Shown in pieces: positions 8,124 to 19,402 of a stretch of 25,661 bases of DNA. This stretch comes from a virus. The stretch is from positions 1 to 25,661 of the IMG/VR virus record IMGVR_UViG_3300033146_001063; one strand, given 5' to 3'. Positions within the stretch are counted from its first letter, which is position 1. Each line of letters starts with the position of its first letter. A model generated the notes under the pieces. It saw only the letters and a list, made by a program, of their open reading frames with translations, was not told where the DNA came from and did not search any database. The position numbers were made by a program, and so were the translations under genes.

Positions 8124-10421
8124 TTATAATAATTCTTCATCATTTGTTTGCAAATCTAATGCAATTTGACTATTCAAATTTACGCCAAATTTATTTAATA
8201 ACTCATCCTCTGCAAAAAACTCATCATCAAAATCATCAGCTTGCTTAGTATTTGCATCATCATCAAAATCTATATCACCATTCAATATTTTTAAATCTTC
8301 ACGAAGTATGAATAATAAATTACCACTAGATACTTTATCATAGTTTCCATTTGACTGCCAATGGAGTACTTCACGCATATATTCTATATCATCTATTAAA
8401 TCTATACCCTGCACATTATAATACGTATTCATCTTACGCATATAATCTGCTTGTAATCGCCTACCCCAAGCATTAATAGCTTTGTTAGCTCTAGTACCTT
8501 TAGACTTATTACCTACTGTATATCTTTTATTTATTAATGATTTCTCTTCTAGGATAGTTGGTGTGTCATACAATAAATGTAAAGCACCACGATTTTTGAA
8601 ATGACCATATAAACCCTTTAAGTTGTTCTCATAATTTATCACAGCATTGAATGAAGTTGCCACCATTAGTACTATATCATAATCTTCAGCTACAATATCT
8701 CTCCTACCTATGTACCACCCTATTATCTCATCTTTCCAGAAATCCATTAACATCCAAGCAAATAGAGATTTACCTTCAGATTCAGCATCATCATCATCTA
8801 AAGTGTCTACACCTATACCATACCTGTATATTGGAGGTTCACTAGATGGTGGTAAGTATTTTAGTACCAATCCAGCAGTATTAGCTTGATTACCTGTATA
8901 TGGAAATTCTGTTATCGGAAATACACCATTGTAAAAATATTGTACATGGCCACCTTTCATTACAGGATACACAACGTGTAAATTCTCACTTATAGTTTCG
9001 TACTCGCCTGTTATAGTAGCTACCCTCTCTCTAGTTAAATCTAATGGGAATGGTGATGAACCTTGTGTTACCATAGCCTCTAAAGGTGTGATAGCACTCT
9101 CAGCTTTCTTCTGTGCTAGTACATCAGCATCTTCAATTTCTGTTGAGATAATCTCACGCTCAATGAAGATATCCACCAATGACCTTACTATATCATTGAC
9201 ACCATCTTTATTATACCTGCCAGGTCTATTCATGTATTCACCAATAAACCAACCAGTTTTACCTGTACCTCTTCTATCAAAGATATTGTTTACAGACTTT
9301 ATATGGAAACCTTTTGGACTATAGTGTAAAGTATTTAAGCCATGAAAATCAGAGTTCTTGTCTCCACCAGTACCCATAGCCATCTGCAATCCGAAAACGT
9401 TACCACGGTCATTCAATGACTTGTGAGTTATATCCCAAGATCGTAGGATATGCTTGTCAGAACCAGCTTCCTCATGTATTACCAACTTACCACGTTTACC
9501 CCTCGCTGCATTAGGATTCTTTACGTTTACAGGGTTTATCTCACTTAGATATCCACTAAGTGCATTGTTCTTGGATTTATCTTTGAATCCGAATTTTATG
9601 CCATCTACAGTACCTTTAAGTTTACGTTTCTTATAAGCTGTGTTGTCTTGTATAAACCCTTCGGAATCTAGTACCTTGTTCATTAATCCATCAGTGTACA
9701 GGTACTCATCTAAAGCAGCAAATAAATAAGTCTTGGATTTCTTTATTAAGAACCCATTCCTATGTGCCATTGAAGCCGCCTTTAATGAAGCTCCAACACC
9801 TCTGGACTTTAAAAGACTTGCGTACTCACCACTATTTTCAGCTTGCTCTATGTAGTGAAACCAAAAATAATCAGCTTCCCAAATATCTGGAAAACTGTCT
9901 ATCCTATCTGCTCTATGTGAATGTATCTTGTTTAAGGCCTCTATCTCTTTTAACTCCTCATCATTATCAACCCTCTTAGTTAACGGTATTTGAGTGTAAT
10001 TCCAGTACCAATAGTTGTAACCACTTATCCACTCACCATCAATAGGCCTAACATATCCCTCTATAGATCTACGTTTCTCCTCATCCCAGAATTTCTTGAA
10101 CTCCGATTTAGGACTTCTGGATGGCTTGGCAAATGTATAAACACCATTCTTTAAAAAGGTATCTCGGCTTTTTGTAAAGTAACTCATGTTTTCAAGTACA
10201 TGAGGATGCTCTAAATCTACTATCAACCTACCCTTAGCATCTCTAGGTAAATCCCTGGCATACTTCCTGTCAGGTGCAACAAGTCTTTCAACCCATTTAA
10301 CGTTTTGTATAAAATCTATTAAATCAGCAAAGACTTTCTCAGATACCTTAGACTTCAATATTTCATCTATAGGTGTCTGATATTCATTCGTGGGGTATAA
10401 TATCTTATTAGTTTCTAACAC
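8124..10421 (-). CDS. Terminase large subunit (ATPase and nuclease)
   Basis: 765 codons. The ATPase motor occupies about residues 200-390. The Walker A-like motif is KSRGVGAS (205-212), with the lysine at its first position and Ala where GK usually sits. Walker B is LVIHEEA (313-319) with E317/E318. A GTGGD coupling-type motif follows at 350-354. The nuclease domain begins near GIGVDTLDDDD (D539 as first metal ligand) with INYENN near 595-600 and a further acidic helix later. It packages DNA into the prohead through the portal encoded next. The ATG overlaps the upstream gene by 7 bases. The deviant Walker A resembles that of lambda gpA, where the lysine is also moved forward. Confidence 0.9.
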   Translation of the reverse strand: MLETNKILYPTNEYQTPIDEILKSKVSEKVFADLIDFIQNVKWVERLVAPDRKYARDLPRDAKGRLIVDLEHPHVLENMSYFTKSRDTFLKNGVYTFAKPSRSPKSEFKKFWDEEKRRSIEGYVRPIDGEWISGYNYWYWNYTQIPLTKRVDNDEELKEIEALNKIHSHRADRIDSFPDIWEADYFWFHYIEQAENSGEYASLLKSRGVGASLKAASMAHRNGFLIKKSKTYLFAALDEYLYTDGLMNKVLDSEGFIQDNTAYKKRKLKGTVDGIKFGFKDKSKNNALSGYLSEINPVNVKNPNAARGKRGKLVIHEEAGSDKHILRSWDITHKSLNDRGNVFGLQMAMGTGGDKNSDFHGLNTLHYSPKGFHIKSVNNIFDRRGTGKTGWFIGEYMNRPGRYNKDGVNDIVRSLVDIFIEREIISTEIEDADVLAQKKAESAITPLEAMVTQGSSPFPLDLTRERVATITGEYETISENLHVVYPVMKGGHVQYFYNGVFPITEFPYTGNQANTAGLVLKYLPPSSEPPIYRYGIGVDTLDDDDAESEGKSLFAWMLMDFWKDEIIGWYIGRRDIVAEDYDIVLMVATSFNAVINYENNLKGLYGHFKNRGALHLLYDTPTILEEKSLINKRYTVGNKSKGTRANKAINAWGRRLQADYMRKMNTYYNVQGIDLIDDIEYMREVLHWQSNGNYDKVSSGNLLFILREDLKILNGDIDFDDDANTKQADDFDDEFFAEDELLNKFGVNLNSQIALDLQTNDEELL

Positions 10422-15710: not shown

Positions 15711-15848
15711 GCTCAAAAAACCACTTAAACGCTAAAAACCTAATTCAAATAATTCTACAATTGCTATAAACAACAATTAACAAAATGTTATAAATATAAC
15801 AATTAGTTAAATCCACACCATTTTTTTAACATCTTGAAACCACTAAAC

Positions 15849-15915
15849 AGTCAGCTAGGAGACTATAAAATACATTCTGAAGAGACTAGACGAAATACTA
15901 TATAGTATCAATGTA
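15849..15915 (+). ncRNA. Hammerhead-type self-cleaving ribozyme, copy 1
   Basis: All core elements are in order. Stem I 5' is TACATT (15871-15876), then CTGAAGA (15877-15883). A G...C-closed loop, GACTAGAC (15884-15891), is followed by GAAA (15892-15895). Stem III is TACTA/TAGTA (15896-15907). UC (15908-15909) precedes the predicted cut, and stem I 3' is AATGTA (15910-15915). The residues match the hammerhead consensus CUGANGA-GAAA-UH and the A15.1-U16.1 pair. Upstream hairpin AGTC/GACT (15849-15864) has a loop whose CTAG (15855-15858) can pair with CTAG (15886-15889) in loop II. A near-homologous copy at 17807 keeps every pair by compensatory change. Cleavage would leave a 77-base 5' leader on the 15987 gene. 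Confidence 0.75.
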
Positions 15916-15986: not shown

Positions 15987-16178
15987 ATGGAAGAAAATAA
16001 ATATTACGTTTACGCACACGAAGATGTGCAGAACGTAAACGGACAGAGAATGTCCGAAACAGTGTATTATGTATCTACAACGGATGTAGATACAACCAGG
16101 ACAATGTCTTGGTTGGAGGCAGAATTTGACTCCTTCGAAGAGGCTGAGGAGTATATAAAAGATATGCAACGCCTATAA
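15987..16178 (+). CDS. Small acidic protein; mRNA rich in hairpins
   Basis: 63 codons (MEENKYYVYAHEDV...), acidic and soluble, ending in a likely amphipathic helix (FDSFEEAEEYIKDMQRL). Preceded by the 17-base A-rich leader and the first ribozyme. The coding sequence carries four perfect or near-perfect stem-loops in about 115 bases (16041-16055, 16070-16094, 16096-16112, 16129-16152), unusual for an AT-rich phage gene. The amino acid sequence looks genuine, so I call it coding, but a structural RNA role cannot be excluded. No family recognised. Confidence 0.6.
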   Translation: MEENKYYVYAHEDVQNVNGQRMSETVYYVSTTDVDTTRTMSWLEAEFDSFEEAEEYIKDMQRL

Positions 16179-17770: not shown

Positions 17771-17805
17771 AAATCTCCTGTATAATCACATGCAGGAGAT
17801 TTTAA
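17771..17805 (+). terminator. Intrinsic terminator upstream of the second ribozyme
   Basis: A perfect 10-bp stem AAATCTCCTG (17771-17780) with CAGGAGATTT (17793-17802) and a 12-base loop, followed by a short T-run (TTTTAAT overlapping the stem end). The ribozyme hairpin begins two bases later, so read-through would place the ribozyme in the transcript. Confidence 0.6.
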
Positions 17806-17806
17806 T

Positions 17807-17871
17807 CGTCAACCTGGAGACGTTAAAATTTACTCTGATGAGACAGGTCGAAACTATATTTAGTCAGTAAA
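17807..17871 (+). ncRNA. Hammerhead-type self-cleaving ribozyme, copy 2
   Basis: Stem I 5' TTTACT (17829-17834) is followed by CTGATGA (17835-17841). Then come a loop GACAGGTC (17842-17849), GAAA (17850-17853), stem III CTA/TAG with a TATT loop (17854-17863), UC (17864-17865) and stem I 3' AGTAAA (17866-17871). This is the canonical core with a GUC cleavage triplet. The upstream hairpin CGTC/GACG (17807-17822) has loop bases ACCTG (17812-17816) complementary to CAGGT (17844-17848) in loop II. Compared with copy 1, stem I, stem III, the hairpin and the loop-loop helix all change in paired fashion. Cleavage would leave a 29-base leader before the ATG at 17895. Confidence 0.8.
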
Positions 17872-17894: not shown

Positions 17895-18104
17895 ATGTGT
17901 GACAAGGACAATAAACACAGTAAAGGGCAAGAAGGTAATCTTGCTGAATTTCTGGTTAATATTCCAGAAAAAATGAAACCTGTTTTAATTATATTAATTC
18001 AGGAAATACAGATATCTGATTTAAAGGCAGAGATATCAAAACTCAATAAAACTATTGAGAATTTAGAAACTGAACTCAAAGAGTTTAAAATTTGCAATAA
18101 CTAA
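17895..18104 (+). CDS. Small coiled-coil protein
   Basis: 69 codons. The first 28 residues are polar. Residues about 29-69 form a leucine/isoleucine heptad helix (LIILIQEIQISDLKAEISKLNKTIENLETELKEF), typical of a short dimeric coiled coil. It follows the second ribozyme and overlaps the next gene by one base (TAATG). The function is unknown; a scaffold or antirepressor-like adaptor role cannot be separated. Confidence 0.5.
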   Translation: MCDKDNKHSKGQEGNLAEFLVNIPEKMKPVLIILIQEIQISDLKAEISKLNKTIENLETELKEFKICNN

Positions 18105-19272: not shown

Positions 19273-19369
19273 ACCTATATAGTTTAACTAGGAAAAACCC
19301 CATAAGAATAAATTTTTATTTCTTTTTTTAACTCAATGGGAGATAATGGTTCGAATCCATTTATAGGTA
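19273..19369 (+). tRNA. tRNA-like element with enlarged anticodon loop
   Basis: Acceptor ACCTATA (19273-19279) pairs with TATAGGT (19362-19368), and U8-A9 follow the acceptor. The D stem is GTTT/AAAC with a 9-base loop holding GG. The T arm AATGG/CCATT has the loop TTCGAAT. The anticodon stem CCCAT/ATGGG (19299-19303, 19336-19340) encloses 32 bases instead of 7, with an internal AATAA/TTATT hairpin and a T-run. No anticodon can be assigned and CCA is not encoded. It is either a decaying tRNA gene, a tRNA with a small insertion, or a tRNA mimic. Confidence 0.55.
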
Positions 19370-19402
19370 CTAATATTATTTATTAATTAACAAACAAATA
19401 TT

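Follow-up and report, generated by a model that had tools for sequence, protein, structure and literature searches.

Two predicted cis-cleaving RAGATH-1 hammerheads in a crAss-like phage, and relatives that lack a substrate strand

The element at 17806–17871 (+ strand) of the window, which is the whole 25,661-nt stretch of viral DNA analyzed here, is, judged from its sequence, very probably a cis self-cleaving RAGATH-1 hammerhead, one of two such elements that a Crassvirales phage carries among its small genes. It combines a complete hammerhead core with a stem II of a single base pair and a 5' hairpin that pairs with loop II. The sequence-only reading was right and describes a known family, from which the element departs in small peculiarities; what makes the case interesting is the set of relatives, which fall into two classes, namely 29 cis-type elements (window copies included) and 15 elements without a substrate strand, plus one odd member.

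The window is a piece of a crAss-like gut phage: the major capsid protein matches PF23898 (E = 3e-109), and terminase and portal are of the crAss type according to PHROGs matches. Phages of this kind are very abundant gut viruses, and little is known about their transcript processing. Two RAGATH-1 hammerheads within 25 kb can now be placed in one of them; a full-text literature search found no paper that names crAss-like phages and hammerheads together. Both window elements lie on the + strand, amid small open reading frames that are antiparallel to the structural genes. The first stands ahead of a 69-aa frame (17895–18104, +; no match in a PHROGs search), which supports the leader position that had been proposed from the letters alone, while its sister (15848–15915, +) lies upstream of a 63-aa frame (15987–16178, +; no match in a Pfam search). 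The distance of 29 bases to the gene given in the sequence-only reading holds when counted from the predicted cut to the start codon at 17895, not from the end of the element. The window also contains a tRNA-like gene (19273–19370, +) whose anticodon arm region contains an insertion and to which ARAGORN could not assign an anticodon.

When the whole window was scanned against 4227 Rfam families, RF03152 (RAGATH-1) was matched at 17806–17870 (56.1 bits, E = 4.3e-7) and at 15848–15914 (66.4 bits, E = 2.3e-9), so that the search with Rfam hammerhead models suggested earlier returned both copies. A search with this single family gave E = 1.0e-10 and 5.6e-13 for the two, and matched none of 14 control genomes. 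Relative to the curated cut-off of 56.3 bits, the sister lies above and the named copy 0.2 bits below, the latter with a full-length match (1–77). By sequence, both copies are assigned to the known RF03152 type, and their architecture is the family consensus rather than a new one; the suggestion that a separate 5' hairpin would be unusual for a hammerhead did not hold. A chance resemblance, which might be considered for so short and A+U-rich a motif, is refuted by the E values of the Rfam-wide scan (4.3e-7 and 2.3e-9) together with covariation across independent phages, and its probability is practically negligible.

In the named copy, the 5' hairpin P0 (17807–17810/17819–17822) consists of 4 bp, CGUC/GACG, and carries the loop AACCUGGA, as judged from folding and from covariation among relatives. 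Within this loop, ACCUG (17812–17816) can form 5 bp with 5'-CAGGU-3' in loop II. The 5' strand of stem I, UUUACU (17829–17834), forms 6 bp with 17866–17871 and leads into the catalytic core CUGAUGA (17835–17841; assigned by Rfam match and core layout), which is followed by the rudimentary stem II with its one pair G10.1–C11.1 (G17842–C17849) and the loop ACAGGU containing the pseudoknot partner (17842–17849 overall). The core segment GAAA (G12, A13, A14, A15.1; 17850–17853) opens stem III (17853–17856/17861–17864; loop UAUU), whose 4 bp include A15.1–U16.1 (U16.1 = 17864). C17 (17865) and the 3' strand of stem I, AGUAAA, complete the element up to 17871, with the predicted cut at 17865/17866. 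All of these parts are on the + strand, and the general hammerhead core CUGANGA ... GAAA ... UH with A15.1–U16.1 is present. The complete core at 17807–17871, the 6-bp stem I and the cleavage site had all been read correctly at the outset; stem II, put at 1–3 bp, is indeed rudimentary and comes down to the single pair, and stem III, put at 3 bp, is present and extends to 4 bp once A15.1–U16.1 is counted. A strong hairpin of 13 pairs lies just upstream (approximately 17771–17803, +; predicted by folding). It had been taken for a terminator ending 2 bases before the element, but no T-run follows the stem and the hairpin is absent from the terminator-like sites flagged in our scan; it is not a clear intrinsic terminator, and the picture of a ribozyme placed right after a terminator is not established. 

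For the comparison with relatives, elements were gathered from IMG/VR by DNA patterns and kept if the 5' hairpin pairs and its loop can pair with loop II; pairs were counted on 32 distinct relatives or, for stems I and III, on 27 distinct cis types. The selection required a pseudoknot of at least 4 bp and the three inner hairpin pairs, and a cis strand had to offer at least 3 stem I pairs; full pair counts are therefore partly built in, unlike the variety of pair types per position. Of the variable P0 pairs, one is formed in 31 and two in all 32 of the 32 relatives, the fourth pair being an invariant C–G; the inner four pseudoknot pairs are formed in 32/32 (shuffled means 17.7–30.1), with AT, CG, GC and TA all occurring at one position; and each pair of stems I and III is formed in 24 to 27 of the 27 cis types, with many pair types. 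Covariation is thus seen in P0, in the inner four pairs of the pseudoknot and in both stem I and stem III. The kissing interaction proposed in place of a normal stem II is supported by this result, and homologous loci, named at the outset as the place where broken core residues or pairings might show up, keep both, the pairings through compensatory change. At position 17, C is found in 24 and A in 3 of the 27 cis types, G being barred by the search rule. The outermost pseudoknot pair is usually G.A, is U–A in seven other elements and is A–U only in the named copy. A search for annotated close relatives of the exact locus yielded only a 48-base piece in crAss-like phage cr272_1, and the conservation described here is that of the wider set of relatives rather than of the named copy itself.

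It is conceivable that the named copy has decayed or is poorly active and that only the sister at 15848 is functional. The score just under the RF03152 cut-off would fit such a view, as would nested folding, in which the hammerhead without its pseudoknot reaches −4.8 kcal/mol compared with −10.0 kcal/mol for the best nested fold, an advantage of 5 kcal/mol over the hammerhead helices alone; the helices are short and A+U rich, and with so poor a thermodynamic margin, modeling suggests that misfolding is possible. However, no core base has been lost, and at 5 bp the pseudoknot exceeds its usual length, the two-sided change from G.A to A–U having created a pair, so that we consider decay unlikely.

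As a cis self-cleaving ribozyme, the element would use the pseudoknot of 4–5 bp between loop II and the 5' hairpin loop in place of both stem II and the tertiary contact, with stem I as an open helix. The transcript would cut itself after C17 (17865); the upstream product would then end in a 2',3'-cyclic phosphate, and the gene at 17895 would be preceded by a 29-nt leader starting with a 5'-OH. In the sister, the corresponding pseudoknot is CUAG/CUAG and the cut is predicted at 15909/15910. The substrate strand is present in both copies, which gives them a cis and not a trans layout, and we conclude from sequence that both are predicted cis self-cleaving ribozymes in small-gene leaders. We infer cleavage as such from homology and anatomy, building on hammerhead variants of the RAGATH set that have been reported as demonstrated ribozymes (PMC11061315). 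The cut may serve to split or trim the transcript, trimming of the leader being plausible. Position in a small-gene leader and the strong hairpin just upstream might also suggest that the element does not serve cleavage but acts as a leader structure influencing how the downstream mRNA is translated or how stable it is. Yet the cis class keeps all catalytic residues and the UC of the cleavage site while the helix sequences change, and retention of C17 and G12 counts against a purely structural role because mere structure would need neither; we therefore regard such a leader as quite improbable, even more so than decay of the copy.

Several further observations were made among the cis elements. 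One (L185; IMGVR 3300010885_044958, minus strand, at about position 10070 of the reverse complement) combines C3→G with G8→C, which by sequence represents a compensatory swap of two core bases that pair with each other; we know of no natural report of a G3–C8 core pair. A U3–A8 core pair has previously been reported in nature (PMC3088659). In seven elements (L008, L009, L011, L012, L014, L023 and L044), stem III is long and contains, close to the base, the conserved internal motif AGAGAAACUAU...AUAAUGG. In crAss-like phage cr130_1, one ribozyme (L024) has two candidate substrate strands, one of them about 210 nt away, and both return the identical stem III sequence. The genome of crAss-like phage cr131_1 (NC_055902.1; G012) contains four RAGATH-1 matches, located at its two ends; two of these have tRNA-Met and tRNA-Gln genes in their vicinity. 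In five contigs (G005, G020, G024, G025 and G008), the terminase frames run through several TAG codons, as would be expected where crAss-like phages recode TAG. A pattern scan of genome contigs gave mostly chance matches in coding DNA and only two real elements (L058 and L065), both on one phage-like contig binned in a Rickettsiales MAG, and four IMG/VR matches (L031, L036, L040 and L043) were discarded as repeats of one chance match.

To separate the two classes of relatives, a substrate strand was sought 3' of GAAA, within 300 nt, as stem III return, UH and stem I return. In the cis class this strand usually surpasses what shuffled sequence offers by a wide margin; two members with a short stem III (L030 and L034) were assigned to the class by eye. 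Fifteen elements lack a convincing one (L004, L005, two in L006, L013, L015, L020, two in L026, L027, L033/L038, L035, L041, L042 and L186), although three of them reach p values of 0.01–0.08 via weak, distant matches that we judged by eye to be chance. An intrinsic terminator follows the arm after GAAA in 15/15 substrate-less but 0/29 cis elements (Fisher p = 4e-12, an optimistic value given that relatives are not independent). The substrate-less class retains the 5' hairpin, the pseudoknot and the catalytic core. Since our first patterns had demanded the core, we rescanned with the 5' hairpin and linker only, which recovered the substrate-less elements, and all those not cut by a contig end retain CUGANGA and GAA. 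The odd member outside the 15 (L222) also keeps CUGANGA and GAA but has U at position 15.1. The free arms of the class measure 5–6 nt and about 8 or more nt, and no distant cis substrate strand was found in the same contig. Behind the first of the two tandem elements in L006 lies a strand that nearly qualifies as a substrate, GAUAU-UUUAAG-UACAG, but has additional bases where the cut would fall; L015 has a weaker one. A UGAA(N)AGUA loop resembling a bulged-G motif is found in many of the terminator hairpins (also at G002:32709), and the same hairpin follows a gene in Microvirus MT135430.1.

Several substrate-less elements begin within 15 nt of a stop codon, which in at least four contigs is that of an RNA-ligase gene (PF09414). 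In related phages (G002, G011, G013, G029/G033 and G043) the element lies directly behind this gene, and in G023 a short frame stands between the two. Among six elements at corresponding loci in five RNA-ligase contigs, the scaffold is 93–100% identical and the upstream flank 58–83%, while the arms are mostly at chance-level identity, with arm III common to one pair. The second element of L026 and L186 have both arms in common although their flanking genes differ. A crAss-type terminase was found in four phages with substrate-less elements (G017, G024, G031 and G036); neither it nor a crAss capsid was found in the examined contigs of the RNA-ligase group. The short contigs that carry such elements, one of 5.8 kb and one of 6.1 kb, are not microviruses, as is evident from their terminase-like and RNA-ligase genes.

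To our knowledge, the hammerheads found in nature work in cis. In the substrate-less class, a scaffold that makes sense only with a substrate strand stays intact in its absence and comes with free arms and a terminator, which suggests that these relatives in crAss-like and other gut phages may be natural trans-cleaving hammerhead small RNAs, a reading we put forward tentatively and consider doubtful. Such an RNA would consist of a frozen scaffold (5' hairpin, pseudoknot and core), two fast-changing guide arms and an intrinsic terminator. Its source would be the 3' ends of phage mRNAs, including several that encode RNA ligase; the window's cis copies might represent the ancestral form of the trans type, or the reverse. 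Having a cis layout, the two window copies themselves fall outside the proposal. Searches for targets in the elements' own contigs gave no excess relative to shuffled arms, nor with foreign contigs as the null (Fisher combined p = 0.66). In 12 contigs taken together, 2/14 tests fell below 0.05 (the first element of G004, 0.04; G036, 0/25 shuffles), both with their best site in an unrelated phage, and we claim no target. No excess was seen in the tRNA loci of one Prevotella or in one Porphyromonas 16S, and the exact target pattern of one guide had 3 hits in IMG/VR, where we estimate about one to two by chance. This failure counts against trans cleavage but is not decisive, the bacterial loci covered being those of one Prevotella and one Porphyromonas and several contigs being fragments. 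A binding-only antisense RNA and a stable 3'-end structure are alternatives for the substrate-less class. If trans cleavage were true, a ribozyme small RNA built of scaffold and guides would be the first hammerhead from nature of which we are aware that acts in trans, and it would offer a ready-made, pseudoknot-stabilized RNA cutter.

Compared with known systems, the window elements share with RF03152 the 5' hairpin, the conserved linker UAUAAAAU, the one-pair stem II, the loop–loop complementarity (the consensus loop CCAAG can pair with CUUGG), the hammerhead core and stems I and III; the named copy differs in that its ACCUG/CAGGU has A–U in place of the consensus G.A and in that its stem III has only 4 bp. 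The hammerheads described by Perreault et al. 2011 (PMC3088659) have the same core, a pseudoknot replacing the classical loop contacts and, in some cases, a very short stem II, but their pseudoknot links stem II with loop I (or its counterpart), whereas the window type uses a separate 5' hairpin. About 40% of hammerheads were predicted in that study to have a stem I–stem II pseudoknot, at odds with the sequence-only reading that natural hammerheads rely on loop I–loop II contacts. Non-circular hammerhead permutations of type SGC and CSG (PMC10085705) likewise combine the hammerhead core with additional pseudoknots, whereas the core segments of the window elements follow the ordinary C-G-S order with an open stem I. 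Finally, engineered trans-cleaving hammerheads (e.g., PMC6412130) have the same layout as the substrate-less relatives, arm I – CUGANGA – stem II – GAAA – arm III, from which the latter differ in being natural and in carrying a 5' hairpin, a pseudoknot and a terminator.
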